The notes under the pieces are model-generated. The model had not been told where the DNA came from. It saw nothing but the letters and a program-made list of their open reading frames with translations, and ran no database searches. A stretch of DNA of 64,000 nt from Stercorarius parasiticus. Its lineage: Eukaryota > Chordata > Aves > Charadriiformes > Stercorariidae. Positions 3,161-62,905 of the stretch are shown in pieces (position 1 is the stretch's first letter; each line of letters begins with the position of its first letter). The stretch lies in assembly GCA_013396915.1 (NCBI GenBank), contig VWZL01000583.1, positions 186,001 to 250,000 on the forward strand, in the 5' to 3' direction. The translations under genes were made by a program, and so were the position numbers.

Positions 3161-5585
3161 GAGCAGCCCTGAGGAGAAGGACTTGGGGGTGTTGGTGGAT
3201 GAGAAGCTCAACGTGAGACGGCAGTGTGTGCTCACAGCCCAAAAAGCCAACTGCATCTTGGACTGTATCAAAAGAAGCATGGCTAGCAGGTCAAGGGAGG
3301 TGATTCTACCCTTCTACTCCACTCTGGTGAGACCCCACCTGGAGTAATGTGTCTGTTGGAGAAGGTCCAGAGGAGGGCCATGAAGATGATCAGAGGGCTG
3401 GAGCACCTCTCCTATGAGGACAGGCTGAGGGAGTTGGGGTTGTTCAGCCTGGAGAAGAGAAGGCTCCAGGGAGACCTTATAGCAGCCTTCCAGTACTTAA
3501 AGGGGGCCCACAGGAGAGATGGGAAGGGACTCTTTATCAGGGAGTGTAGTGATAGGACAAGAGGAAACTGTTTTAAACTGAAAGAGGGTAGATTTAGATT
3601 AGCTATTAGGAAGAAATTCTTTACTGTGAGGGTGGTGAGACACTGGAACAGGTTGCCCAGGGAAGTTGTGCATGCCCCATCCCTGGATGTGTTCAGCGCC
3701 AGGCTGGATGGGTTTAGAGCAACGTGGTCTAGTGGTAAGTGTCCCTGCCCACACCAGGGGGTTTGGAACAAGATGATCTTTAAAGGTCCCTTCCAACCCA
3801 AACCATTCTATGATACATCCCCACCATGCGGTTTCACATCAATGCCTCTCTTGCTACTTTGATAGTATAAGTCATCTCTCTTCTGAAGGACTTTACATCT
3901 CCTTCATCTTTTGCAGTTCCCATATTGACATAAGAATGCATACAGGACCTTGTTTGGATAGTCTTACTTACTAACATTAAATTTTCTAACATTTGATTTC
4001 TCTTTCTGAATGTTCACATGCAATGTTAATTTGATAGCTGTGTTTTAATTTGTAATATATGTAGTGTGTGGGCTGTGTGCGTTTTTTTCTTGTTTTTCTT
4101 TTGTTTATGTTTTTTTTGGGGGGGATTGTTTATTTGTGAGTGACTACAGCTTACATTTTGCCTTCTTGTGAGCCTGGAATTTGAAAACACAGAACTCTGA
4201 ATACACCGCTACAGTTGAAAAAAAAAAAAAAATCAACATTGTTTTCCCTCTGACTTATGTTCTTGCGGTTCAAACTACCTTTGAATATGGCTGACCTTCC
4301 TAGGTTCAAGGCCTCCAAAAAATGAAGTGGATAACAGTATTTAAACGTTGGAAAAGTCCATGCTAAATGTATGTGAAGATGAGGCAAATGACACCAGTTA
4401 AACTCTCTATCTCAAGATTTTTGGAGTATTGAGGGAAAGGAGGATTAAAAAAAAAAAGGTTATTCAGCTGGTGGGATGGTGGGAGGTGATCCCTTCATTC
4501 CACATGGTAAGAAAACATAATCTTTTCCAGGTCACCTGGAGTAGAACTTCCATATTCAGGAGGCTGGTTAGAGTAATAAAGGAATAGAACAACTAAAATT
4601 GTTCTTTATGTGTTAATACATAGTTAATTTTGTCTGGCAAAACTAAACCTACAACAAAGAAATACTATTAAGTATTTCATTGCTGAACAGTGTTCCCTCC
4701 GTGTTTTCATCTCTCTCCTCTATTTCAATTCTATGTACATAACTGTTTCAAAAAAAAGTCTGCTGGCAATGCTATTGGGTAAAATAGCCCATTCTAAATC
4801 TGTCTAATTGTTTGCCACCCCCTGATTTTAATGGTCATTCCATCCTCGCTTAATTATATATATCCAGTATCCACATTTGAATAGAATGTAAGTCCCTGTT
4901 CTTTGGCTTAGAAGAAAAAAGCAAGTTTCTGAGTGTCTAGCATCTATCATCTGGTTTCCAAATGAATGTGTATATGAAAAGTTCCTGCTAACCCAGGTTT
5001 CTAAACTGTTTAACTGGAAGAGGTAAATCAAAATACAGAGTTGTAGACCATCAGTCTAGGTAGCAGATAAATAGGAAAATGTCTTCCAGGCTACTCAAGC
5101 CATTTGAAAAATAACCCATAAAATTTAATTGCAATGACTTGATATTTTTATGATTCCTTTTCATGGATTAGCATCATTGTTTAATATAAAACATTAAGAA
5201 ATAGAACAATATCTATAGTCTTGATGATGTCTTAGACCAAAGTGTTGGGGTTTTGCTGTTCAGAATTATTTCTCTTACAAAAGGATTGTTTCAGAATGCC
5301 TGCTGTAGCATGACAGTAATTTTCTAAGGACATACTTTATTGATTTTTCTGTCTATTTTTTTTCTTCACAGTATTTAAACTCAGTCATAAAATGCAAAAC
5401 AGATTGGATCTACATCATCTTCACTAGCTATAGACTTTCATGCATTTCATTACATCTGTGCAGCTTGAGAAGGAGATGAGATGTGGTATGGACACCACTG
5501 TTTTGATGCCCAGGGTGAAATCACATCTGAAATTACAATCCCTAAAATCACTGAACTTTCCCATTATTGAAGGTTAGAAGCTGGT

Positions 5586-5795
5586 CTAAGCCACTGAAAG
5601 ACCAGTTATACTGGCTAATCGTGATAGATCCTGTGCTGCTATCAGGCTATGAACAAGTTCTGTAAAGACATTTGTGTCATCTCTCAATTTTGTTACAATC
5701 TTTCCTTCATTAAAATAATACATAGTTGATGGATCTATGTAATATTTTCCATTCTCTCTCTCCACTGCCAGACCACTAACAAGACAGAGCATCAA
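5586..5795 (-). other. Unassigned exon-like open frame
   Basis: On the minus strand this reads as an open frame whose downstream part has protein-like composition ('ENGKYYIDPSTMYYFNEGK', 'LRDDTNVFTELVHSLIAAQ', 'DLSRLASITGLSVA') and ends in TAG at 5586-5588. Candidate splice acceptors on that strand end at 5776 ('ctgtcttgttag') and 5765 ('ggtctggcag'), which would make it a terminal exon of about 180 nt with stop. I do not recognise the protein. It could be a fragment of a processed pseudogene, a terminal exon of an antisense gene, or chance. The mixed acidic, aromatic and hydrophobic composition argues somewhat against chance. It lies antisense inside the STXBP6 intron. Confidence 0.3.
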
Positions 5796-7094
5796 ATGGT
5801 TTCTTTCCCTCTTTGCTTTTATTTACATTTGACAAAAATATAAAATTAGTACCTTGGCTGGTTGCTGCTTCTGCTTACCAGTACCTACCTTCTGCTACGA
5901 AACCTACCCAGTTTGCACACCTGTATAAACAATATTCTTTCTTCTGTTTCCTTCTCCTCTCCTTCCCCCCTCTAAAGGACTACCAGTGAAATAATGCTTT
6001 AAAGCCAGTTACGGATTTGGACAGGAAAGTACGGAAGGTAAAGTTCTCTCAAGTGTTGTCTTAAACTTGCAGTTAGGAAACTCATTGCTACTTTGACCTG
6101 GACAGAATTTTAGTAGCATATCCTTCCACTCTTGCTGAATTAAGGTCAGTAGTATCTTGAAGATATCCCTTACCCCTCTTCAGAAACCATAGCAGGCTCC
6201 TCTTCATTCACTGTGAACTTCAGCTGTAAGTTATTTAGCTGTTGACCACCTGAATACTGTAGTTGTTCTGCATGGTTCATGCTTAATATTGGTGCAAAAG
6301 TGGAGAAACTTCTCCATCAGTGCCTGATTTGGAACATTTCCACAAAGCTATGAAAAAATAAGCTCATGCAGACAAGTTGAGCATAACTCTTACTAGTAAA
6401 TGGAGTACTATCTGAAGCCTAGTTATAGCAGTCTTGAAATCAGAGCATTTACTCAGGTACTTAGGAGGACCCAGTGGCCTCTTCTGAGCTTTCTGCAGCT
6501 CTGATGGTATTACTTGCAAGACCCTGGATAGCTAGTGGTCCAGATCTGGAATGGTTATGTAGGCTATAGTCATTGCAGGAATCTGAAATATAGACACATT
6601 CTTCAGTCAGTCAATCCAGAAAGAGTACTTAGCTTTCTTTTCTAGCTTTCTTTCCAGGCTAAAACAAAAAGTGGGATGTTTTACCCACTAGACTCAGTTT
6701 TTTTAATTTTATTTTTTTTTGGTGGAACTTAAAATTTACCTTGCAAATCTAAAGAGGTGACATGGCTAATGAGAGCAGAGGAAGAAACTGATCACAGTTG
6801 TCAATAAAGCTTATCTTGTTTTGTTGTTTGCTAATGAAGGTTTTGCAGCTGAACAGTTAGGATTATCATTTTGTCTCCTACATTCTTTATAATTAGTAGG
6901 AGCTTTTCAAAAGTATAATGATATGATTCACAAGGTATTTTTTATTATTGTTAGAAATAACTTGGAAGCATCTATTTAACTCCCAGGATGTAGATATTAC
7001 TTAACTAGTAGCAGGAATAAAATTGCTGTTTCCTTATGTGAAAATTGAGATATGTTAAACTTGGCTTTTTTTGGCCTTAAAAGTACAAGATTAC

Positions 7095-7111
7095 AGATAG
7101 ATAGATAGATA
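7095..7111. repeat. Short GATA microsatellite
   Basis: About four tandem GATA units followed directly by an A-run, within intron sequence. Confidence 0.9.
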
Positions 7112-8053
7112 AAAAAAAGAAATTGTATGCAGATGTAAATAACATGTTGAAAAGCAATGAAGTGACAAACTAAGTTTATGTTAGAACATGTTGTTATGCT
7201 ATAAAATATTCTAAATTACTAGAATTAACAGTATAGGCTTCATTTCAGATGCTGCAAATCAGGAAGACTGAACAGTATAGGATCATATTTTAAGAGGTTT
7301 ATAGAGGTTTAAAAAGTGCTTATAATCCACTGTTTGTTTTTTCTTTTTTTCCTTGTCTTGCATGCTTTGGACAAAATACCAAATTAGATGTATTTTTAAT
7401 CTAAAAGTCTCTCTGCTTCAAAATAACATGCAATATTTGCCTGCATTTTTCTGTTCACAGCTGTTCTTGGCCACTATTGGCATTAATGGGTATTAAAAGA
7501 TGCATTTGTGTCAAAGAAATTGCTATTCCACATCAAAACAGGGAAAAGTAGTATAGTCAGTCTTAATTTGAGATCATTCCTTATTCTGAAACCTGCATTC
7601 CTGACATACCTGTGGAAGCCCTTTCTTTTATTCTTTGCATCCCTTGTCAAGTTCAGCTCCAGGTGTGCCTTGGCCTTTCTGACCCCATCCCTACACAACC
7701 GGAGAGTGTCCCTCTACTCTTGCCAGGATACCTGTCTCTGCTTACACTGCCTGTGCATTTCCTTCTTGCCCTTTAGTTTGACCCGTAGGTCTTGACTCAG
7801 CCATGCTGGTCTCTTGCCCTACTTTCCTGATTTCTTACACCTGGGGATCAAGATCTGCCGGCTCTGTTCTGCTCCCTTGTCCCTGAGGGCAGTTTCCCAG
7901 GGGGTCCTGTTGACTAACTCCTCAAAGAGCTGGAAATTTGCTTTCCTAAAATCCAGGGTCTTTACTCTTCCCCTGACCCATATCCCTCAGGACTGTGAAC
8001 TCCACCAGTGCGTGATCACTGCAGCCTAGGCTGCTTCCAACTGACATCACTAA

Positions 8054-8640
8054 TTAGCTCACATTGGTGACCAAAAGGTTCAGTATCATATCCCCTCTGG
8101 TGGGGCTGTGTGTTACATGGCTTAAGAAGTTATCTTTGAGGCACTTCAGGAGTCTCATGGATTGCCTACAGTTTGCTATGTGGCTTTTCCAGCAGATGTT
8201 GGGGTGGTTGAAGTCCCCCAGCAGGATGAGAGCCTGCAAGCACGATGCCTCCTGTAGCTGGAGGAAGAAGGCTTTGTCAATAGGCTCCCCTTGATTGGGC
8301 AGCCTGTAGTAGACACCAACCACAAGGTTCCCTTTGTTGCCTTGGTCTCTTGTTCTTACCCATAGGCTTTCACCCTGCTCATGGCTATACTTCAGAGACG
8401 GCTCTTCACATGCTACCGTACTCTTGATGTAGAGGGCAATACCTCCACCCCTCCTTCCTGCCCTGTCTCTTTTGAAGAGCCTGTAGCCATCGATAGCCAC
8501 ACTCCAGTCATGGGATTCATTCCCCTGCAAGTTTCAATAATGGCAACTAGATTGTAGCTTTCTAGCAGCATGTTGGTTTGCAACTCCTCCTGTTTGTTGC
8601 CCGTGATGTGTGCATTGGTGTAGAGGCACTTCAGCTAGGG
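8054..8640 (-). pseudogene. CR1 ORF2 endonuclease domain remnant
   Basis: Minus-strand coding homology to the CR1 endonuclease (exonuclease/endonuclease/phosphatase fold). The upstream part near 8640-8535 reads 'LKCLYTNAH', 'GNKQEELQTN' and 'LVAIIET'. After a break the frame from 8530 to 8054 gives 'GYRLFKRDRAGRRGGGIAL', 'NLVVGVYYRLPNQG' and 'LLGDFNHPNICWKSH', the last being the GDFN catalytic block. A stop ends it at 8054. The Met at 8528-8530 is internal to the domain, so the 158-codon frame is not a real start-to-stop gene. Confidence 0.9.
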
Positions 8641-8895
8641 TGTCTGCCGTGTTACCTTCTTAGGAACATCCTTAAATTCCTTTGGGGTATTTCACTGGTG
8701 TATCCCTCTTGGCCCCTATTACCTTGGGGGCCTCTGGCTTGTCTCTGTAAGACTTCGAGTGTATTGCATTGCAGCCAGCACATCTCAGAGCAACAGGCTG
8801 TGGGCCCTCACTGGCACTCCATCCCTCTAACTGTTGCCTGTCATCCCACAGCTTGTCACGGGGAAGCCTGATACTGCTCCCCTCCCTCTTCAAGC

Positions 8896-9620
8896 CTAGT
8901 TTAAAGGTCTGTCAACGAGCCCCACTAGCTTGTGAGCAGAGACCCTCTCACCCCTTTCAGAAGGGTGAACTTCATCTGACATGAGCAAGCCTGGTGCCAT
9001 GTAGGCCATCCCACTGCCACCCAAAATTGTGGCAGTGACACCAGCCTTGGAGTCATGTATTAATATACTGGACTCATCTGTTTCTTCCAATGTCACTTCC
9101 CACAACTGTGAGGAGAGAATTAAAAATAACCTGTGCTTCCAATTCCCTTACCAACCGTCCCAAAGCCGTGAAGTCTCTTTTGTTTGCCCTTGGACTATGC
9201 GTTATGGCTTCATCGCCACCCACAAGGAAGAGCAGCAATGGGTAATAGTCTGACGGCCGTACCAGGCTAGGAATTTTCCTAGTGATGTTGTTAACCCAGG
9301 CCCCAGGGAGGCAGCAGACATCCCGAAGAGGAGCGTACGTCTGGCATATTGAACCCTCTGCTCCCCTCAGAACGGAGTCACCTACAACTATAACCCATCT
9401 TCCTCATGGAGGTGGTTGTGATACCAGTGGTAGGCCTTCCTGACCTTGGCAGCACCTCTGGTGAAGATGGACTATCATCCATATCATCATCTATTGACTG
9501 GCCTTCCACATCCAGAGCCTGTACCTGTTGTACAGATGCACCTGGGAAGGCAGGGTGGGCAAGGAGGGTGGAAGACCATGGAAATCCTCCTGTTCAGGCT
9601 GAGCTAGGAGACTTCTAGTT
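8896..9620 (-). pseudogene. CR1 ORF1 remnant with SGNH-type esterase domain
   Basis: Minus-strand reading gives the ORF1 protein of CR1-type LINEs, which carries an SGNH hydrolase (esterase) domain. Visible blocks, in order: 'VVGDSVLRGAEG' with the GDS nucleophile block at 9374-9382; 'CCLPGAWVNN' (block II); 'YYPLLLFLVGGDEA' (a degenerate block III, usually GxND); and 'LLMSDEVHPSERG', whose DEVH at 8965-8976 fits the DxxH Asp/His pair. The frame is broken, for example by a stop after 'GSDIGRNR', so no intact protein is made. An identical copy of this region lies at 10939-11663. Confidence 0.85.
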
Positions 9621-9640
9621 TTTAAGGCTCAAATTGAAGT

Positions 9641-10908
9641 TGGGAAGGACATTATCCTTGAAAGATAAATTGAGAAATTGATTTTCAAATTTAAATCTAC
9701 AGCTTCAAGTATTTCAAAGTTATGATTAAATTAATAAATCCAGTAAAGATAGTACTTTCTATGAATGTTCTGTCTTTCAGATCACTTAGTCATCCCTTCT
9801 GGCTGATAATTTAAATATTGAAATTATCTGGAGAACATTCCATTCATGTGATACGGGAATTCATTAAGTTGTGAGAGGGAATTATCTAATAGGATTGCAA
9901 TCACAGAAATACTATTTCTATAATCTTCTACTTGATAACTCAAGCTGTTTAATAAGGCTTGCACGTGGCTATTTAAGAGAGTTCAGAAACCTATTTCTGT
10001 TTGGTTCTTTTTAGCAACATTTTCTTTTTTATTCAAAGAGCTCCTAAATGAGGCTGTTGGGGCCAATACACGTGAAAGGGAGTGTAACAGTCACATGGCA
10101 GGGAGGTGAGAGGGATGGAAAAGGAGGGGAAAAACATGTTTGTCCTGTTAACCTTTGTGATCAGCTGTTACGTTACAGTAGTAATGGAAGGCCTTGGGCT
10201 AATGGTAGTTCAGGAACTGTAACTCTCTGGTAATTATGACTTTAACAAAACAAGTATTCTCAGTAAGAAGGCACAGCTTATGGAATTGTGAAGTGCCACC
10301 ATCAGTTGGAACCCCATCAGTCTAAATATTTTGAAATACCTCAGCTTCCTGAGCTAGAAGCCTAGAGTTCACTTAGTCCTTTATTACTGTTGTAGTGTTT
10401 CTGGTGGGTCATTCTAGACATAGCTGTTCCTTGTTGTGAACAGTTTCCTTGATAATTTTGGTGGAGGAAGGGATTTGCCTTCATGTCTTCAGTGCTGCGT
10501 TGCAACAATTTTTTTTTTTTCATGGCATAATTCTTTCTCCTAACAAAACTTACTGGTTTGATTGCAGAATTGGGCTAATATGTGGGAGTCACCTGAGCCT
10601 TGACAGCCGAGGGGAAAACTTCTAGACTAGAGAAACTTGCAGCTTCCTCTTTCCCCTTTTCCTTTGAAAAAAAATCCCTTTCTAGGCAGATGAATTGCCA
10701 TCTGAACAAATGCCAGGTAAAGAACTTTAGCTTCCAGTGGTCACTTTCTTCTTTCTGAAGTGTTGTTTTCAGTGGTTAAGTACAGTTTGGAGGGTGGACG
10801 AGGAGGTGGCTTTTACAAAGCTCTCTCTAAAAGAGGGACTGATCAGATACAAGCTAGATTCTAACTGGTTTTTATTATTGACAGTAGCTGATCGAAACAG
10901 ATGGGAGA
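9641..10908. other. Intron sequence within repeat copy 1
   Basis: Non-CR1 part of the repeated block. It is AT-rich with short frames only and I see no gene. It repeats at 11684-12951. Confidence 0.6.
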
Positions 10909-10909
10909 N
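10909..10909. other. Single N: assembly join
   Basis: The only ambiguous base noticed in the window. It sits exactly between the two copies of the 2042-bp direct repeat, as expected if two overlapping contigs were placed end to end without merging the overlap. Confidence 0.95.
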
Positions 10910-11683
10910 CCTGATACTGCTCCCCTCCCTCTTCAAGCCTAGTTTAAAGGTCTGTCAACGAGCCCCACTAGCTTGTGAGCAGAGACCCTCTCACCCCTTT
11001 CAGAAGGGTGAACTTCATCTGACATGAGCAAGCCTGGTGCCATGTAGGCCATCCCACTGCCACCCAAAATTGTGGCAGTGACACCAGCCTTGGAGTCATG
11101 TATTAATATACTGGACTCATCTGTTTCTTCCAATGTCACTTCCCACAACTGTGAGGAGAGAATTAAAAATAACCTGTGCTTCCAATTCCCTTACCAACCG
11201 TCCCAAAGCCGTGAAGTCTCTTTTGTTTGCCCTTGGACTATGCGTTATGGCTTCATCGCCACCCACAAGGAAGAGCAGCAATGGGTAATAGTCTGACGGC
11301 CGTACCAGGCTAGGAATTTTCCTAGTGATGTTGTTAACCCAGGCCCCAGGGAGGCAGCAGACATCCCGAAGAGGAGCGTACGTCTGGCATATTGAACCCT
11401 CTGCTCCCCTCAGAACGGAGTCACCTACAACTATAACCCATCTTCCTCATGGAGGTGGTTGTGATACCAGTGGTAGGCCTTCCTGACCTTGGCAGCACCT
11501 CTGGTGAAGATGGACTATCATCCATATCATCATCTATTGACTGGCCTTCCACATCCAGAGCCTGTACCTGTTGTACAGATGCACCTGGGAAGGCAGGGTG
11601 GGCAAGGAGGGTGGAAGACCATGGAAATCCTCCTGTTCAGGCTGAGCTAGGAGACTTCTAGTTTTTAAGGCTCAAATTGAAGT
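10910..11683 (-). mobile_element. CR1 ORF1 region, second copy
   Basis: Copy of the minus-strand CR1 ORF1/esterase region found at 8867-9640, with the same GDS and DEVH blocks and the same stops. If the repeat is an assembly artefact this is not a separate insertion. Confidence 0.9.
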
Positions 11684-12951
11684 TGGGAAGGACATTATCC
11701 TTGAAAGATAAATTGAGAAATTGATTTTCAAATTTAAATCTACAGCTTCAAGTATTTCAAAGTTATGATTAAATTAATAAATCCAGTAAAGATAGTACTT
11801 TCTATGAATGTTCTGTCTTTCAGATCACTTAGTCATCCCTTCTGGCTGATAATTTAAATATTGAAATTATCTGGAGAACATTCCATTCATGTGATACGGG
11901 AATTCATTAAGTTGTGAGAGGGAATTATCTAATAGGATTGCAATCACAGAAATACTATTTCTATAATCTTCTACTTGATAACTCAAGCTGTTTAATAAGG
12001 CTTGCACGTGGCTATTTAAGAGAGTTCAGAAACCTATTTCTGTTTGGTTCTTTTTAGCAACATTTTCTTTTTTATTCAAAGAGCTCCTAAATGAGGCTGT
12101 TGGGGCCAATACACGTGAAAGGGAGTGTAACAGTCACATGGCAGGGAGGTGAGAGGGATGGAAAAGGAGGGGAAAAACATGTTTGTCCTGTTAACCTTTG
12201 TGATCAGCTGTTACGTTACAGTAGTAATGGAAGGCCTTGGGCTAATGGTAGTTCAGGAACTGTAACTCTCTGGTAATTATGACTTTAACAAAACAAGTAT
12301 TCTCAGTAAGAAGGCACAGCTTATGGAATTGTGAAGTGCCACCATCAGTTGGAACCCCATCAGTCTAAATATTTTGAAATACCTCAGCTTCCTGAGCTAG
12401 AAGCCTAGAGTTCACTTAGTCCTTTATTACTGTTGTAGTGTTTCTGGTGGGTCATTCTAGACATAGCTGTTCCTTGTTGTGAACAGTTTCCTTGATAATT
12501 TTGGTGGAGGAAGGGATTTGCCTTCATGTCTTCAGTGCTGCGTTGCAACAATTTTTTTTTTTTCATGGCATAATTCTTTCTCCTAACAAAACTTACTGGT
12601 TTGATTGCAGAATTGGGCTAATATGTGGGAGTCACCTGAGCCTTGACAGCCGAGGGGAAAACTTCTAGACTAGAGAAACTTGCAGCTTCCTCTTTCCCCT
12701 TTTCCTTTGAAAAAAAATCCCTTTCTAGGCAGATGAATTGCCATCTGAACAAATGCCAGGTAAAGAACTTTAGCTTCCAGTGGTCACTTTCTTCTTTCTG
12801 AAGTGTTGTTTTCAGTGGTTAAGTACAGTTTGGAGGGTGGACGAGGAGGTGGCTTTTACAAAGCTCTCTCTAAAAGAGGGACTGATCAGATACAAGCTAG
12901 ATTCTAACTGGTTTTTATTATTGACAGTAGCTGATCGAAACAGATGGGAGA
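10910..12951 (+). repeat. Direct repeat copy 2 (probable false duplication)
   Basis: Second copy of the block at 8867-10908. It starts abruptly inside the CR1 ORF1 region, with no CR1 sequence to its left, and at its right end runs smoothly into unique sequence ('accgtgcacaataagcagag'). That asymmetry fits a contig overlap better than a biological tandem duplication. Confidence 0.95.
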
Positions 12952-13680
12952 ACCGTGCACAATAAGCAGAGAAAACGTGCAGACATAAACGTAGTCATAC
13001 CAGTCCTGGGTGACTGGGATGTTGCAAAAAGATTGCCCTTAAATGTGTAGCTCCTAGGTTACCAGACCACATTCTCCCTGAGGACAGCTGCTTGTAGCAC
13101 AGCCAGTCAGTCTCAGACCAGACACTGCATTTTTCATTTGATGTGTTCAAACCATTACTCTTGCTGACTCCATCCTGACGTTGACTGGTTCTCACTCAGT
13201 CTTCTTCATTCTTACTCATTAGCTACAACTTTATTTCAGCCTATGTGCTAACAGAGGTTGATGATTTTGGATATGCTACTTAAACAGTCTTTTTGTAAAT
13301 ACACAGATTGAGTTTGTAGCAAACACAGAATTTTCAAAGTCACCTGCCTGGTTTAGAAGTATGAATCTATTGACAAATACACTGTGTTCCATGCCTCCAT
13401 TGTAGCAGGTTAGTGCATTATGTTTCTCAATAATAATTAACACTACTTAATCAGAAGCTCAATCAATAGTATTGACACAGTTACTGTAAGCAGTACCTTT
13501 GTTTCAAAAAATCTTGTGTTTTATCTTCAGGGCATGTTGCTACCTGATTTTCCAACTAAGCCTAAATAAATGTCAATACTTCGGCGAATTGAATTTGAAA
13601 CAAAACAACAAAAAAAGTGCATCTGGAGTTGTGTAAACCTTTTGGATTACCTTGACAGGGAAAAGGTGAATAAGGCTTTC

Positions 13681-14194
13681 TTGGTTTTGGCTGGGATGGA
13701 GCTCATTTTCTTGAGCCAGTATAGTGCTGTATTTTAGATTTGTGACCAAAACTGTATTGGTAACACACCGGTGTTTTAGGTGAGCAGTGCTTACACAGTG
13801 TCAAGGCCTTCTCTGTTTCTCATTCTGCCTGCCCCCAGCGAGTAGACTGGAAGGGGACACAACTGGGAAGCTGACCCAGATTGACCAAGGAGGTACACCA
13901 TACCATGTGACACCATGCTCAGCAATAAGTACTGGGGGAAGCTACCTTTTCCCAAGGTAACCATTGCTCAGGGACTGGCTGGGCGTTGGGCAGCTGGTGG
14001 TGAGTGATTGGGTTTGCATCATCTGTTTTTTGTTGCTTTTTCTCCCCCCACCCCCTCTTCACTTACTAAACTGTTTTTATCTCAACCTTTGAGTTTTCTC
14101 GCTTTTGACTTTCTGATTCTCTTCCTCCATCCCACTGGGAGTAAGCAAGCAGCTGGGTGGGAGCTTACCTGCTGACCAGGGTCAACCCACCACA
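13681..14194 (+). mobile_element. Solo LTR of an avian endogenous retrovirus
   Basis: The sequence matches the widespread avian ERVL-type LTR layout: 'ggctgggatggagctcattt', 'aacacaccggtgtttta', 'caaggccttctctgtttctc', 'ccatgctcagcaataagta' (core promoter-like region), then 'actaaactgtttttatctca' and a closing 'gggtcaacccaccaca'. It is on the + strand. The 7-bp string ggctttc flanks it at 13674-13680 and 14195-14201, consistent with a target-site duplication (5 bp expected for ERVL; the extra match may be chance). The 5' TG terminus is not intact. No internal retroviral genes are present, so this is a recombined solo LTR. Family assignment is from memory. Confidence 0.8.
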
Positions 14195-17100
14195 GGCTTT
14201 CATTCAAAATGGATTATTTTCACATTAAATACAACTCTTTATAGTAGTCACTTTCTTCTTAACCTGTATGAAATCTGTTTCCTCTTTCTGAATATTCCTT
14301 ACAGAAAAATATACTCATTTGGAATAGAATTTGGTGGATACTTCAGCTTGTGGTCATGAAGAAATTTTAGGAGATACAAGATTTTACCTACTGGCAGAAA
14401 TGGCTGAAAGGGTTCAACCAAAAAACCCATCCTTTTTTCTGTATAGGATGACATCAATGTCAATAAAAACACCCATTTCCAGTGATTTTACCAGTCAACT
14501 AATCAAAAGCATCAAAGCTCGCAAGCCTTTTCAGTATTCACAGCTTTCGCAGCTCTCCACTCATGCCCCAGTGGAAATATTTGGCATCTTAGTCTCAAGA
14601 AGCAGCTTGCCGTGGTGCATAGCTCCTGTTCTTTGTTTTAATTGTGCATTCTGCTCCTTGACAGGTTGGCTGTAATACTGGCATTCCTTGAGATCCTGTA
14701 GGATTACAGAACTTTGCCAGAGTAAGCCCCTCTACAACAATTACGAATTAATGGGCAAATATCACTGCTCAGTAAGATTTTTAGACTTTATTTGGTTTGT
14801 AATCCCCAAGAAAAATACCCTTTTTGGAGAACAAATCAGGCTTTCTTCACACAAGGTTTTCGAAGTTATTACATCCAAAGTCTTTTCCGGCTTGGATCTT
14901 TAGATACAAAGTTTTTCTCAAAGGTGCAAATTTCCGTGGGCTTGGCCTGTATTCATATATTGGGTTAATAATCTTGACTATAACTATTTATCATTAATAT
15001 TTAATATTGATTTTAATTTGTCAGGATTTAACTGTAAGAAGATATTTGCTTAAAATGTAGTAACAGCATAATCTGCCGCATCCTCCCCAGCGCCCCCAAG
15101 GATTAATAACATTTTGAGCAACGTAAAGATAAGAGACCAATTCCTACAATAAGTTGAAGCAAAGATATGTTAAATGAATTTTTCTAATTTTACTGTTTGA
15201 AATTTGAATCAGTAATTTAATAAGATCAGTCTCTTCATGCCTAGTGCACGGACTCTTAAGAAACACTTCTCATATGCAGGGCTTTTCTTCCTTTTCTTGT
15301 TCTTTGACGGATTTTCTGAGGAGAAAATCTTTTTTGATTCTTCTTCTCCACTTTTGAATCTGGTCTTACTTAAGTGTCCCAACGGAGTAATACTTGTAAA
15401 GCTTTAAATAACATATTATTTCACGTATCATCTACACAATGTAGCTTTCTTTCAGTATCTGTAAGGACACTTATCTTTCCAGTCAACACAAATAATCTGT
15501 GTGTATAAAAGCATTTATATTACTTTAATTGTTCAAAAGTATCAGTAATTTACTTGACACCATTGCTGTGGAGTACTGAATAAAACAGAAGAGAATGTCA
15601 GTAGCTCAGAAGGAATTCTCATTATCAAGAGATCTCATCAATTAAAAAAAAAATTTCTTTGTAGTTTAATGCCCTTATGTTGTTTAATGTCACTACTTAA
15701 GCTAAAAGGACACTAGCATCAGAGATAATATCTCCATTTTCTTCTAACTGTGGCAAGAAAGGTTATCCTACTCAGCTGTCTGTGGAAACAGTTTTTATAG
15801 TCCCTTACCGAACCATAAAAAGGGTTGGGTTTTTGTAATACAGCTCTCTCTAAATCTAAGATTTTGCAAGCCACACTGAGAAATTTGAATACACTTTGCT
15901 TATTAGCAATAAAAATATTGAACTGTTGAACCCTTAAGGTAATTAAGGTAATTTTTTTTTTTTAAAGACCTCATCTTTTCCCCTTGATTAAATTTTATTC
16001 CCTGTGCTCTGCAGAAGTCATTCTGTTCATGTGCTGCTTTCAGGTTTTTGTCAGCTAATGGTCTGCTGTTTTTCATGTTACTTGATTTTCTTTAATTTAT
16101 GTGGTTCTGGTTAGGATATGTTGAAATAGAGGAGTTAAACAGCACAGGTGTAACTTGGGAAGAGAAACAATGCTATACTATAACCTCTTTCCTTCTTCAG
16201 ACCACTTTGCTGCTTACAAAAAGCATCTCTATGACACTTCTTTCACGAGGATATATTCATTCTTAATTGTTAAGCACCTTTCTGTTCTCCCTGAAGTCCT
16301 TTAGTTTTATATTGATATTTTAATAGTTCAGTGCTTTTTGGTTCTTAAGCGATGAGTGCACAGGTAGTTAACAAAACACAAAATTGTGAAGGAGAAAAAA
16401 AGCCATTCTTTGGATTTGCAATCAATGTTTCCAAACTTCTGTTGACCTTTTAGCGGCACCAGTATATCTGAGTGTAAATAGCATGTGTAGGCATACAGAA
16501 TAATTATATTGTGATGGAGGTGGTCTTCTTAATGAACTTTAACTGATTGTCATTATGCTTTTAAGCTTTATTCAGTGACATAGGTCCAGTTTTATGTAGT
16601 TCAGTGGGAACCATAAATACCTGTTTTCTTTAAATAAAAAATAACTTCATATGATAGGCGGAACTTCTTAATTATCGTAGCTAATTGCATTTATTGCCTT
16701 CTCAAAATAAGGCAGTTGCTAAATGCTGCATTAATGCATATACAATTAAAAAACTGCTTGCATTTACAAATCAGTCACTGTAGAGTCTTAGCACTAATGT
16801 ACAGATGAATCTCGCATTGAACCAAAATACATTTGATATGGCTAATAGAGAATGCGATGAACCTTTTATGAAGGTATGATGAAACGGATCATGCAAACTA
16901 AATAATTGTATCTCTAGAGACCAATTAGTTTCTTCAACAAATAGACCAGTTCCCATGCTGGTTGATGATAGGATAACCTTTCAGGTGCTGGGTATGGTGG
17001 GTTACAGATGTACTCTTCTCTTGTACATGATAAAAGGCCTAAAGCAATGCCACCTGATTTCATGGGCTGCAAGACCCTCTGGTACAGCTTGTGATCATAA

Positions 17101-19236
17101 GAACTAAAAATTTAAAAATGAGTCTGAGTGGAGCTGTGGTGCTTCCTGAAAAGTGTTATTTCTTTAATTCTTATGTCCATAAGCAAGTAATGTGGTTAGG
17201 ATCACTGGTCTAAAGCACTCACCCAAGTGCAGCTGCCCTTCTGCTATTTCTGCACCTTTGGGCAACAATAACGTTATATATTATTATACAGGTCACTAAT
17301 TGAATTTTCTAAGGGGAGAGGGGAGTTTAATTCCAATAGTTTATATTTCACCACAGAAAACTCAAAATGAAATGTATAATTTGCTTAGCAAATTGGATTA
17401 CCAAGCTGTGTAGCTATTGATTGTTTTGGAAATCTCCATGTTTCTTACTTCTGGGTAGACAACTTCAGATAATAAGACAAAAAGTATTATAGAAGAAAAG
17501 CTATATTAGAAGCAACCTTATTAAGCCACTTGTTTGAGTAAATGAAAAAAAATTAGCAATATGTTGCTGTGCTTTTATATGTAGAAAAACTAAACCGAAG
17601 AATCCCATTGAATTAAGCTTCATTTGTTTAGTTTCAAACTGAAGTTGGCCTAAACATACATGTTTTGTTGATACTAGAAATTAATATTGACCTATACTTT
17701 ATATTAAACTCAGTATAAATACATATGTTACCCATGTTATCTGGCAGTATTTGCCCCAGTTACTCAGTGACTCTGCAAATACTCTTAGATAGCAAAAAGG
17801 TGTGTGCTTGCCCTTAATAGAGACTTCAAAAAAGTTGTTTAATAAAATGCCAAAATATGAAAACTTTCCTATTTTCCTTTCATGCTTATTTGAAAAAGAA
17901 AAGTCCGTAGTCTCAACTGCTGGGATCTGTTCTACAGAGCAATAGAAAGATACATGTGCTCCAAAAATGGGAGAATCTCCATGTACCTTAGAAAAAGCAG
18001 CAGCACAAGCACATGACCCTTTCTGCTTACAGTGAAGACTGTAGCCATGCAGAATTTGAGATTGCAGGCCCTCGGAGTTGAACATCGTGGGAACAATGCG
18101 AGTTCTTTCCTACTAAAAGCAACATCAGCTGACCTATACCCATATTTTGGTCGTGTTTATCTCATCTTGAAGTGTTATAAAATCTCATTCCTGAGCAGAT
18201 GTATGTGAAAAGCTGTTGGAAGTCTTCCATTGAGGAGCTTGTGGTGAGAAGTCCTGAAGTCTTTTAGACTCCTCATGGGGTGGGATGTCTATGAGGGGAA
18301 GTGATTAACAGCAGTTGTGTAAGCAAAGATGGAAAACAGTCTTTCTAGACTCTAGGAAGATGTCACACTTCTTTAGGTTTTTCTTCAGTGGCTCAGTGCA
18401 GCTGGTTGGCATAAATTTACAATTAAGTATGTATAATTCAGGCAGTTTTGTTGTTCAGTCATGGAACAAACTTCTCTGGAGATCTTGAATCACAGTAGTT
18501 ATCTCCTGAAGAATGGCTTAAAAATTTTGCAGGTTGTAGGTGATTTGTTCATAGGAATGATTCTCCAATACATCCAGTACAAGTGTTGCTATTCTTGCAG
18601 TGATACTAATATAAGGACGAGGCATAGTCAGTCATATCAGCCACCACCTACACATGCTCTAGAAATACACTGATGAAATTCAGTAGACTACTGACACACG
18701 AGTTTGTGTTGCTCATAGATTAGAGTGGATTTTTTTATTGTTTTACTGACATTCCATTGGAAAAGATTACCCAAAAGTAGTTATTCCAAAACAGTCTCAG
18801 AATAGCAACTTCTGCAAGTCACGGGCCATAGAAAAATACATAAGATCTTACCTGGAGAGAACACAGTATTGTATTAGCTATAGAGAAAAGCAATTACTGT
18901 CATCGCACCAAACTTTCAAGTTTGTTCTTCTCTGCTGAAAACAATGTGGAGAAATAGATATCATCAGTCTTTGGCCACAAATCCTGATATTTTCAGGGAT
19001 ACAGAAAATACAAAATATTTTCCTTCTGCAGTTTCCTATTGACATTGTCAGAAGGTCAGCAATGTGTTAACTTGTACTTCCCCGTACATATTAAGACTTA
19101 AGAAGATGCTTAGTTTTACAAAACTTTCCATGTACCCAGAACAGCACAGAAGCTGCTGTGTAAAGCAACAACAGAGTTAATCCAGGGTTGAGACCTTTCA
19201 AAACTCTTATCCTAGAAAACTGACACTGATGTATAC

Positions 19237-24460: not shown

Positions 24461-25722
24461 ACGTTCTGTGAGCAGCCAAGAGAAGTCTCACAGTTGCTAG
24501 CCCTTGTTCTCTTGGTTGCTTCAACTTAACAGATGTCTGCTGGAATTACAATACAGCAGAGAGGAAACAGTCTAGGAGGTTCCTGGAGTGTGTGGAAGAT
24601 AACTTCCTGACACAGCTGGTGACTGAGCCAACTAGGGAAGGCGCCTGCTAGACCTGTTGTTTGCAAACAGAGAAGGACTTGTGGGTGATGGGAAAGCTGG
24701 AGGCCATTTTTGGGCATAGTGATCATGAAATGATAGAGTTTTCAGTTCTTGGAGAAGTAAGGAGGGGGGTTGTTAGAACTGCTACCTTGGACTTCCAGAG
24801 GGCAGACTTTGGGCTGTTTAGGGAACTGGTTGGCAGTCCCTTGGGAGGCATTCCTGAAGAGTAAAGGAATCCAGGAGGGCTGGCCATTCTTCTAGAAAGA
24901 AATCTTAAAGGTGCAGAAGCAGACCGTCCCCATGTGCCAAAAGATGAGCTGACATGGAAGAAGACCCACCTGGCTGAACCCAAGACTTTGGCTGGAAGTC
25001 GTGAAATAAAAGAGAGTTTGAACGGTGGAAGAAGGGGCAGGCAATCAGGAGAACTACAAAGAAGTCGTGAGGGATGTTGGTTGACAGTTGCTTGAATATG
25101 AGCTGGCAGTGTGCCCAGGTGGCCAAGAAGGCTAACAGCATCCTGGCTTGTGTCAGAAAGTGTGGCTAGCAAGACTAGGGAAGTGATTGTCCCCCTGTAC
25201 TTGGCACTGGTGAGGCCACACCTCAAATACTGTTCAGTTTTTGGCCCCTCACTACAAGAAGGACACTGAGGTGCTGGAGCATGTCCAAGGAAGGGCAGTG
25301 AAGCTGGTGAAGGGTCTAGAGAACAAACCTTATGAGGAGCAGCTGAGGAAGCTAGGATTGTTTAGCCTGGAGAAAAGGAGGCTGAGGGGACACCTTGTCG
25401 CTCTCTATAACTACCTGAAAGGAGGTTGTAGACCAAGGTGGGGATCGGTCTCTTTTCCCAGGTAACAGGTAATAGGACACAAGGAAATGGCCTCAAGTTT
25501 AGATTGGATTTTAGGAAAAATTCCTTAATTGAAAGGGTTGTCAAGCACTGGAACAGGCTGCTCAGGGAAGTGGTTGAGTCACTATTCCTGGAGGTATTTA
25601 AAAGACATGTAGACGTGATGCTTAGGGACATGGTTTAATGGTGGACTTGGCAGTGTTAGGTTAACGGTTGGACTAGATCTTAAAGATCTTTTCTGACCTG
25701 AATGATTCTATAATTCTTCTTC
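24110..25722 (+). mobile_element. CR1 LINE with most of the RT deleted
   Basis: This copy begins at the start of the ORF2 endonuclease and continues through it to about 24870. It then has remnants of the linker and, near 25080, jumps to the region downstream of the RT ('gagctggcagtgtgcccagg'). It proceeds to the 3' UTR and tail ('gatcttttctgacctgaatg', ending 'attctataattct' near 25722). Motifs A, B and C of the RT are absent. The orientation is the same as STXBP6 and it lies in the last intron. It is non-functional. Confidence 0.93.
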
Positions 25723-40000: not shown

Positions 40001-42579
40001 GTGTCTTCTCACCTTGTTACAGTACATAACTACTATTGATTACCTGCTCTCTGTTAAATTCTGCTTCTGTTCAGCACTGAAGGGCGCACACAAGAGTTCT
40101 GACAGATTGATCTGGACGTGCAGAATGCAGTTTAAGGAGATGATAGCTCCGACCTTCAACTGAGAAGCCAGTACAAGCCACTATGTGAAGTGTGTTCTTT
40201 AATTCCCAAAGTCATTGCATTGATATTTTCTCTAGCTTTAGAAATATATATATGGCATTTATGTAAGTTTCCATAGATACATGCTAAACAAAGTTACACA
40301 AAGAGGGAATGTTAATTATGCATGGCCATAAAAAAAAAATTTAAAAACAAATTAGATTTTGAAACTTCGAATTTTAACTTCTTTTGAAAAATGCAGTTGC
40401 TAGAAATAATATAGGAATACAATGCAAAGGATCAGCAAAGTTATAATGAGCTTGATTTGACAGTATTGCACTTCTGGCAAACATGGCACCTTACAAAAAT
40501 TTGATAAAGAGGAGAATAGAGTTGGTATTGTCTCTTGGAAGAACATCCAGTATAACAAATCTCAAAATAACCTTGGGTTCAAAAATACGGATATTAAGAT
40601 TGTATTTGGGAGTGAAACAGTTAAAAAAATGCCAAAAAAAAATAATAATGATGATTGCAAGTAACATAAATAAAGGGCAGAATAATGTAACAGAAAAAAA
40701 ACACTCAAGGCAAGTGTAGCATTTATTGAGCTCAATTATATCTGAATATCTCAGAAAAGAAAATGAGAATGTGCACAGAGACACTTAACTTGACTATTGG
40801 CAGCCAAGCCTTACGTACCATGAAAATGTGATCATTGAGAAAGAGCAATAAACAGTGACTGGAAGTGGTTTAGTTACCTGCGTCCTGAAAATATCTTGGA
40901 AGTGTCTTCAGTCTGTATGTCAGACTGAGGAAGAAAACCTTGAAGAGGATTGTCTGTACTGTCCTTTAGAAAGCCTAATTGTATCAATGTTGTGTTACAG
41001 GCACTATAAAATAGCAGAGCATGATAATGGTTGGACACCCAAGGCTCCTGCATGGGCAAAAAAAGAAGAGTAGGACTCTCTTGAATATGTTGATATGTTC
41101 TTATCTGGGTCTGTAACTTGGAGGGTAACAGGTGATCATAGCACCCTACCAGGAGTAGGGATGTGAGAAAGGAAAAGTAAAAAGGAAGAAGGAAAAAAAA
41201 AAAGACAAAAAAACTCTGTCCTGGTCAAAACTAGACTAAGATAAATTCAGCACTATTTCTATCCATTTATTATATGTTTTGCTAGACTTGCTATTACTGA
41301 AATAACGCAAGATCCACAGAGAAGGACAAAGGAAAGAATTTAACCAGCAGTCTTTGAGCTATTTTCCTGCTTAAAATACGATGTGGTTGTATCCTAGACC
41401 TCTGAATATTTCAAAATGCTAGGGCTGAGGTGCTCAGAATTTCTATTTTGACACCAGAAGTTCAGAGAGGTTCAGAGATTTTTTTATAATTTTGGTGAAG
41501 AGAGAAGCATGGTTATAGTTTTTACCTTGCAGCAAGTGCTAGTATAGCAAACAATACCAAAAAATGTTCATACACCGATTCTGTGATTGCTGAGACCTAG
41601 TTGTGAGCAAAAGACAGGATATTGGCAAGCAAGACCTGGATATTGGCTTACTGTGTCCTGAGGTCCTGCTGGCTCTTGTTATATATAAAACTAAGCATGC
41701 TTGTCACTTGAATCTATTTAAGTGGCAATATTAGATGCTATTGATTTTATATCAGTGCTAATTACTGTTGCTTTCAGTGTTGTGGACTACACAATAAATG
41801 ATGGTATGATCAGAACAGTAACACCTACCATAATTCTTGCCCCTGTTATTTGCAAGGGAGCAGCATCTAACGTTCAGCAGAACATCATGACTCTTGGCTG
41901 AAACTGACTCCAGCTTAGGCCTCATTCTCAGCTATAGCTCCCCAACTGGGTTTAAGGGAGGAAAGAGGTTGTTTGTTTTTCTTCCTGCACTGTGCTGTCC
42001 ATGCAGAGTTGTAAGAAAATTCAGATAATTTTTCTACACTAGATCACTATAATAGTAACAAGAGAAAGAAAGATCTCCTGCAGATGAGAAAGTTCTCTCT
42101 CCTCTATTCTGGTTCTTCTCCTCTTTGAGGACATCTGGCATCATTTTAAATCTGGAAGAATTCATTAGAGAACTCTTGGTGATGCCAGGGAGTGGTTCTG
42201 ATGCCAGAACCACGTCTGGCCATATTGGTCTTTTTTTACTTTATGTGACTAGTAAATACAGGATAGCTTTGGCGTTGGTGTCTACGAGAGAGATGTAGAT
42301 ATCCTCAAACAGGTATCTACATCGGACAGGCTCAAAAGTGAGGCTTGGAAGATACTGTTACGTGTGGGAAAAGACAACTGGAAAAAAGTACAAGTAGCTA
42401 TGTGGGAAATTAAGAGTGGAGACCACTTCCTTCTGATAAAAAAAAAAAAAGAAATTGTTTCCTTTCTTTGTTGTCTTGAAGTACATGCTACACTAGCTGA
42501 TACACACCTGATGCTTGGAGATCTTTGAATTTCAGCTCTGATTCCAAGGAATGTGTGTGCTGGAACTGAATTTCTTCAC
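37083..42579. other. Intergenic sequence, nothing recognised
   Basis: AT-rich, with A-tracts near 39825-39838 and 40330-40338. Open frames such as 40483-40719 are lysine- and isoleucine-rich and look like chance in AT-rich DNA. Confidence 0.5.
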
Positions 42580-42790
42580 ATAGAATCATAGAATGTGTTG
42601 GGTTGGAAAGGACCTTTAAAAGTCATCTAGTCCAACCCCCCTGCAGTAAGCAGGGACACCTTTAACTAGATCAGATTGCTCAGAGCCTCATCAAGCCTGG
42701 CCTTGAATGTCTCCAGGGATGGGTCCATGTCCTTCTTGTACTCAGGACTCCAGAGCTGGACAAAGTACTCTGGGCTGGGTCTCACGAGCA
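42580..42790 (-). mobile_element. CR1 LINE 3' end with internal deletion
   Basis: On the minus strand this is the CR1 3' terminus: 'atagaatcatagaatgtgtt', 'gggttggaaaggacctttaa', 'catctagtccaacccccctg', then 'ctccagggatggg'. It jumps from there directly to 'ctccagagctggacaaagta', which lies several hundred bases further upstream in a full CR1, so the middle is deleted. It ends near 42790. Confidence 0.93.
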
Positions 42791-56280: not shown

Positions 56281-56697
56281 CATGAACACAACATGGCCAA
56301 TAAGGCCAACAGCATCCTGGCCTATATCAGAAATAGTGTGGCCAGCAAGACTAGGGAAGTGATTGTCCCTCTGTATTTGGCACTGGTGAGGCTGCACCTC
56401 AAATATTGTGTTCAGTTTTGGGCCCCTCACTACAGGAGAGACACTGAGGTTCTGCAGTGTGTCCAGAGAAGGGCAATGAAGCTGGTGAAGGGTCTAGAGA
56501 ACAAGTCTTATGAAGAGCGGCTGAGGGAACCGGGGTGGTTTAGCCTGGAGAAAAGGAGGCTGAGGGGAGACCTTATTGCTCTTTACGACTACCTGAAAGC
56601 AGGTTGTAGTGAGGTGAGGGTTGGTCTCATCTCCCAGCTAACATGCAATAGGACACAAGGAAGTGGCCTCAAGTTGCGCCAGGGGACATTTAGATAG
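56281..56697 (+). pseudogene. CR1 ORF2 C-terminal remnant
   Basis: An open stretch coding the conserved end of CR1 ORF2: '[20 protein letters not shown]', '[19 protein letters not shown]', '[20 protein letters not shown]', '[20 protein letters not shown]'. It ends in a stop at about 56695. The domain has no start codon of its own and no RT upstream. Confidence 0.9.
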
Positions 56698-56878
56698 GAT
56701 ATTAAGAAAAATTTCTTCACCGAATGGATTGTCAAGCACTGAGAAGCAGGTGAATCACCATCCCTGGAGGTAGATGTGGTGCTTAGGGACATGATTTAGT
56801 AGTGGACTTAGCAGTGCTAGGTTAACCATTGGACTTGATCTTAAAGGTCTTTTCTAACCTAAAATATTCTATGATTCT
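56281..56878 (+). mobile_element. CR1 LINE 3' end
   Basis: A 5'-truncated CR1 starting at the C-terminal part of ORF2 ('aaggccaacagcatcctggc'). It runs through 'ttttgggcccctcactacag' and the 3' UTR to a tail 'atattctatgattct' at about 56878. It is closely similar to the 3' part of the copy at 24110-25722, so the two are probably the same subfamily. Confidence 0.95.
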
Positions 56879-56949
56879 TAGATAAATAAATTGCGTCTTC
56901 TTTTCAGATAATACCAAACCAATGGACAACCATGATATACTGATGGGCA

Positions 56950-62407: not shown

Positions 62408-62494
62408 TTCCCTATCCATAGGGAATATGAATATTCCCTATGGATATCCAATTGGATATTCAATATGGATATTCAATTCCCTATCCATAGGGAA
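62408..62494. repeat. Nested palindrome cluster
   Basis: An 18-bp near-palindrome 'ttccctatccatagggaa' occurs at 62408-62425 and again at 62477-62494. Between them, arms 62413-62428 and 62431-62446 form a perfect 16-bp inverted repeat with a 2-nt gap, and 62444-62459 is a perfect 16-bp palindrome ('atatccaattggatat'). All pieces are variants of a 'ggatat/ccctat' theme, so the cluster probably grew by local inverted duplication. Confidence 0.9.
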
Positions 62495-62905
62495 CTGAAG
62501 GATGTCCTGTTGTCATAAAAGCCAAAACCCGCACGACGGCACCAGCCACAAAGCCAGAAGCTGATTTGCATTACACATCTATTTCTGTCTGCAGCCTTTC
62601 CTCTAACTGGTAAAATGGAAGAAAAGTTAACCTGGGCACCAGTACTTTTCGCTTGCACCCCCGGGGGTTTGTAGTCTTCTTTGATTCTGCCTGGGTTCCA
62701 GCTTGCAATGCTGTTCATGCCCACATGAAAGAGTAGCAATGGAAAGTAGCCTGTGCTCTTGACAAGTTGTGGCACCCTCTCGCCAACATCTCAGACCTTA
62801 ACTCCCGGAAGGTAGGATACCTCATGTGACTCCCTGTCAGGTCAGCAGTCGGGCACTTCAGTGCGCTTTTACAGAGAATCAGCCACTACAAGCACTCCTC
62901 GTTGC
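62495..62905 (-). mobile_element. Ancient CR1/L3-like ORF1 esterase fragment
   Basis: On the minus strand this reads as the SGNH-type esterase domain of a CR1/L3 ORF1 protein. From about 62905 downwards: a degraded GDS block now reading 'VVADSL', then 'HEVSYLPGVKV', 'YFPLLLFHVGMNSIA' (block III, GxND changed), 'GRIKEDYKPPGVQAKSTGAQ', 'FSSILPVRGKAADRNR' and 'WLCGWCRRAGFGFYDN'. Stops interrupt the first third. The nucleophile block has lost its Gly and block III its Asp, so it is inactive. It ends at the palindrome cluster. It is older and more diverged than the ORF1 copy at 8896-9620. Confidence 0.8.

Follow-up and report, generated by a model that had tools for sequence, protein, structure and literature searches.

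An exact 2042-base tandem repeat joined by a single N in a Stercorarius parasiticus contig, probably a false duplication left by assembly

The duplicated block and the N between its copies

We analyzed a stretch of 64,000 nucleotides from the parasitic jaeger Stercorarius parasiticus (assembly GCA_013396915.1, contig VWZL01000583.1, positions 186,001 to 250,000 of the forward strand), referred to here as the window; all coordinates are those of the window. Direct string comparison and BLAST both reveal a block of 2042 bases that is present twice in tandem, with 8867-10908 and 10910-12951 identical at 2042 of 2042 positions. The copies are offset by 2043 bases, and at this offset the longest exact run is 2042 bases, compared with at most 11 bases at each of the remaining 14 offsets in the range 2035-2049 (start positions 8001-13000); a 300-base sample likewise repeats at a spacing of 2043. 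The single position between the copies, 10909, is an N, the sole letter other than A, C, G or T in the window. Even the homopolymers within the block, a run of 12 T and a run of 8 A, have the same length in both copies. The three elements of this arrangement are as follows.

8867..10908, no strand assigned: copy 1 of the 2042-base block, continuous with a CR1 remnant to the left
10909..10909, no strand assigned: single N, presumed contig join, the only N in the window
10910..12951, no strand assigned: copy 2 of the 2042-base block, continuous with the right flank from 12952

The block stands out sharply from the rest of the window. BLAST at an E-value of 1e-3 found no third copy in the window, and a larger tandem array was accordingly rejected. 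When one copy was deleted, no exact plus strand repeats of at least 40 bases were left in the window, which excludes both chance and the ordinary repeat background as the source of the match. Tandem Repeats Finder is limited to periods of up to 500 bases and is thus uninformative for a 2043-base unit. An RNA feature was also considered and rejected, with no Rfam match in the window at the gathering score. The sequence at the join is ordinary, with a GC content of 43% over about 100 bases, and the base that links the end of one block to the start of the next is, in the assembly, the N itself.

An earlier note on this DNA had described a 2042-bp block repeated at a constant 2043-bp offset, with matching copies and exactly one N between them, and all of this is borne out: the exact run spans the full block, differences between the copies were looked for and there are none, and the N at 10909 is unique. 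The same note had copy 2 running into unique sequence on the right. This holds within the window, where the 1500 bases to the right of copy 2 have no BLAST match elsewhere.

A CR1 remnant across the left edge

The left edge of the block falls inside a single minus-strand remnant of a CR1 retrotransposon. The esterase part of ORF1 lies within the block, and the ORF2 endonuclease continues leftward outside it, on the same strand. The recognizable parts of this remnant, and the second occurrence of its ORF1 segment, are listed below.

9101..9400, minus strand: esterase segment of a CR1-type ORF1 in copy 1, uninterrupted for 100 codons, with stops and a frame change breaking up its surroundings
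11144..11443, minus strand: the same ORF1 esterase segment in copy 2, identical to the copy 1 segment at 100 of 100 residues
8896..8979, minus strand: putative C-terminus of the ORF1 remnant, carrying a DxxH-like motif at 8979-8950 and a stop codon in 8928-8896, identified by eye
8054..8634, minus strand: N-terminus of CR1 ORF2 and endonuclease remnant, outside the block; 8054-8533 matches PF03372 above its cut-off (E-value 1.9e-07) and 8530-8634 was assigned by BLAST comparison
7600..8152, minus strand: continuation of ORF2 in this CR1 remnant, with a tblastn match to the CR1 at 1532-2335 of the window (E-value 2.3e-36)

The ORF1 segment, read from 9400 to 9101, matches PDB chain 4c1b with an E-value of 0.00031. 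This chain represents the esterase of ORF1 from the zebrafish ZfL2-1 element, treated by its authors as a representative of the CR1 clade (PMC3905857). Within the CR1 and L2 lineages, an esterase-type ORF1 is known from two vertebrate groups (PMC4120745). A PDB search with 8899-9099 yielded weak matches only, the best with an E-value of 0.41 and the second, a GDSL-type lipolytic protein, with an E-value of 1.4. Three short CR1 pieces, among them the ORF1 esterase segment and the piece with its presumed C-terminus, have no Pfam matches up to an E-value of 1, so that Pfam neither favors nor opposes the ORF1 reading. Recognizable CR1 ORF1 accounts for about 0.6 kb of the block (approximately 8896-9521), of which 9101-9400 was assigned by database match and tblastn and the rest by eye; stops and a change of frame interrupt this part. 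The other 1.4 kb or so of the block was not recognized as CR1. Within ORF2, the stretch 7600-7977 contains two in-frame stop codons. An esterase-type ORF1 is thus found upstream of an endonuclease ORF2 on one strand, the arrangement of this kind of CR1, and the element appears to be CR1 rather than L2, judging from our reading of the protein.

By eye, ORF1 stops at about 8896, within the block and close to its left edge, and recognizable ORF2 begins by about 8634; therefore, the edge at 8867 lies in the ORF1-ORF2 spacer of one element. The order and orientation of CR1 are preserved across the left edge of copy 1 and are not preserved across that of copy 2. On the sequence as assembled, copy 1 appears to sit in its native left context, and the CR1 piece of copy 2 is cut at the N within the ORF1-ORF2 spacer. 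The PF03372 endonuclease and the further ORF2 to the left of the block agree with the earlier proposal that copy 1 runs leftward into CR1. A duplication driven by CR1 itself was considered and rejected: neither edge of the block coincides with a CR1 end, the left one falling in the ORF1-ORF2 spacer and the right one in sequence with no recognizable CR1.

The window harbors several other CR1 fragments. The ORF2 fragment at 1532-2335 on the plus strand keeps an open frame of 268 codons, and its preservation is fairly good for a fossil copy. It matched 1,004 proteins, the top-scoring of which is 75% identical over the whole fragment, followed by bird proteins; among the best 120 of the 1,004, the 110 that carry an organism name (our own count) are all avian and belong to Grus japonensis, Morphnus guianensis, Limosa lapponica, Theristicus caerulescens and Mycteria americana. 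Another ORF2 fragment is located at 3287-3859 on the plus strand; no Pfam family matched either of these two fragments. Two CR1 3-prime fragments, 25120-25718 and 56294-56879, share the plus-strand orientation, are separated by about 31 kb and are 78% identical to each other. A CR1 3-prime end at 42579-42723 on the minus strand matches 3676-3814 at 78.6% and terminates in a pair of CATAGAAT units (42579 and 42587), the repeat typical of CR1 termini. Another remnant of an ORF1 esterase, at 62605-62901 on the minus strand, is 35% identical to that of the block and contains three in-frame stop codons. An imperfect palindrome of 87 bases (84%), containing short tandem repeats of 12-25 bases, occupies 62408-62494.

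Assembly overlap or young tandem duplication

The best explanation of the tandem repeat is, in all likelihood, a false duplication introduced by assembly, a reading that is supported rather than proven. Under such a scenario, one contig would have ended at 10908 and the next would have started at 10910, inside the CR1 spacer, both carrying the identical 2042 bases of a single locus. Linking data would have set the two contigs side by side, with the scaffolder neither detecting nor merging the overlap, and one N, as the smallest spacer, would have been written for a gap that was in truth negative (-2042). The join would then have been made without read support, both contigs would derive from the same haplotype (a homotype error), and the true order would be left flank, one block, right flank. 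If so, the assembly probably overstates the length of the locus by 2043 bases, namely one block and the N. Several observations speak for an assembly artefact: the ends that face each other across the N, presumably the boundary of two contigs, align at 2042 of 2042 positions, and the copies are separated by a gap, if the one N at 10909 is, as seems probable, a scaffold gap rather than an ambiguous base. The CR1 context counts on the same side, with the element running on into ORF2 from copy 1 and severed at the N in copy 2.

The N could conceivably be a stray ambiguous base in one continuous contig that has nothing to do with the repeat, as a one-base N may be an ambiguous call instead of a gap. 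This seems highly improbable, given that the only N in 64,000 bases falls exactly at the junction, a position that a stray N would hit in 1 of 64,000 placements.

The more serious competitor is a real tandem duplication of 2042-2043 bases that would have arisen very recently and be either fixed or heterozygous, possibly still polymorphic in the species. The assembler would then have resolved the left flank plus block and the block plus right flank, halted at the branch points of the repeat, and left the junction as an N. We compared the two arrangements in de Bruijn graphs built from the forward strand of region 4001-18000 at k = 31, 63 and 127. When the block is present as an exact tandem pair, the graph has its branch points precisely at the edges of the block at all three k values, whereas the single-copy model shows no branch at either edge at any of them. 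The coincidence of the N with the block edges is therefore also expected from a real tandem duplication that the assembler failed to resolve, and the geometric argument of the earlier note, that this layout is what overlapping contigs placed end to end would give, fits an artefact but is weaker than claimed. Furthermore, a single-copy locus offers a graph assembler no cause to break at the block edges, and it is odd that an assembler would leave a perfect 2-kb overlap unmerged; both points count against an artefact. Perfect identity also suits a young event, and vertebrates favor tandem duplications (less than 1 Mb apart) over interspersed ones, mostly on a scale of about 1 kb (PMC13431229).

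Nevertheless, we consider a real duplication unlikely. The copies differ at none of 2042 bases, so that the event would have to be younger than approximately 0.2-0.7 million years if the rate is taken as 3.3e-9 to 1e-9 per site per year. One breakpoint would lie within the CR1 element, and the microhomology at the breakpoints is 0 bases in both directions, which weighs against a real duplication while still being compatible with end joining. For true duplications, PMC9516828 did not find a gap between the copies. Above all, the junction consists of ordinary sequence that reads should cover, leaving no N; had the gap truly been one base long, a single normal-length read should have sufficed to close it. 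This ordinary junction, together with the published base rates of mis-assembly, is what appears to tip the balance toward an assembly artefact. Thus, the proposal of the earlier note that overlapping contigs were laid end to end gains support as the best explanation, with a high prior from the literature, though short of proof.

Published parallels and consequences

In the chicken assembly galGal3, 5,698 of the 5,947 nearby contig pairs with overlapping ends were judged to be mis-assembled, as were 13,159 of 13,571 in chimpanzee and 1,094 of 1,366 in cow (PMC2864568). The dog assembly, with only 8 of 22 such pairs (PMC2864568), indicates that the base rate of mis-assembly varies with the assembly. 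The arrangement described here resembles these duplicated overlapping contigs (DOCs; Kelley and Salzberg 2010, PMC2864568), in which the facing contig ends are the same and produce an apparent tandem duplication. It differs in identity, which is 100% for the block and has a median of 98.1% among the false duplications described there, cases attributed to haplotype pairs.

This difference bears on the possibility that each copy represents one allele of a heterozygous stretch, a heterotype false duplication. In the assemblies of PMC9516828, heterotype false duplications are much commoner than homotype ones, PMC2864568 attributes its cases to haplotype differences, and a heterozygous difference just outside the block may have begun the split. 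However, the copies contain no difference at all: the chance of 2042 identical bases between haplotypes is 0.13 at an assumed heterozygosity of 0.001 and 0.017 at 0.002, and a difference-free stretch gives an assembler no cause for splitting alleles. Among the falsely duplicated contigs of earlier vertebrate assemblies, few exceed 99.5% identity (PMC2864568); perfect identity is thus atypical of published false duplications and makes an overlap within one haplotype likelier than a haplotype pair. We regard the haplotype pair as a doubtful variant of the assembly artefact, its small probability included in that of the artefact and below that of a real duplication.

The homotype false duplication, a term of the VGP (PMC9516828), is the closer parallel, with no haplotype differences and an assembly gap between the copies; the block shows the same absence of differences in the assembled sequence. 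According to PMC9516828, gaps between copies are associated with false and not with true duplications. The homotype class is defined there by read depth and k-mers, whereas the block is known from assembled sequence, and the authors tie the class to sequencing errors in reads, whereas no errors are visible between the block copies. Among birds, the earlier zebra finch and hummingbird assemblies contained erroneous tandem duplications, some adjoining gaps, that were corrected by long reads (PMC5632298). These resemble the present case in placing a tandem duplication beside a gap and differ from it in having been checked against PacBio assemblies of the same species.

The lone N has partial precedents. 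In a plant assembly produced with ALLPATHS-LG, single-N regions failed to amplify by PCR, and a solitary N was interpreted as indicating misassembly (PMC6907397). Older versions of ntLink placed overlapping sequences end to end (PMC10202940), and BioNano Stitch put 100 Ns for negative gaps. In the portions of the descriptions of Meraculous, PBJelly and BioNano Stitch covered here (PMC3158087, PMC3504050, PMC4587741), no single N was found, and the literature examined, in the sections covered, includes no named assembler that writes one N for an overlap, the nearest cases being PMC6907397, PMC5368935 and PMC10202940.

The case is an ordinary one, and the duplication is probably not a real feature of the genome. 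Should it be an artefact, annotation would mistake the surplus 2043 bases for a recent segmental duplication and a second CR1 fragment, and reads across the block would map ambiguously. The warning that an annotation of two CR1 ORF1 copies would be wrong points in the right direction; it is of little consequence, the piece being a broken ORF1 remnant. The relevance of the finding lies chiefly in annotation and quality control: a lone N between exact repeats is a simple signature that can be screened for across an entire assembly without reads.
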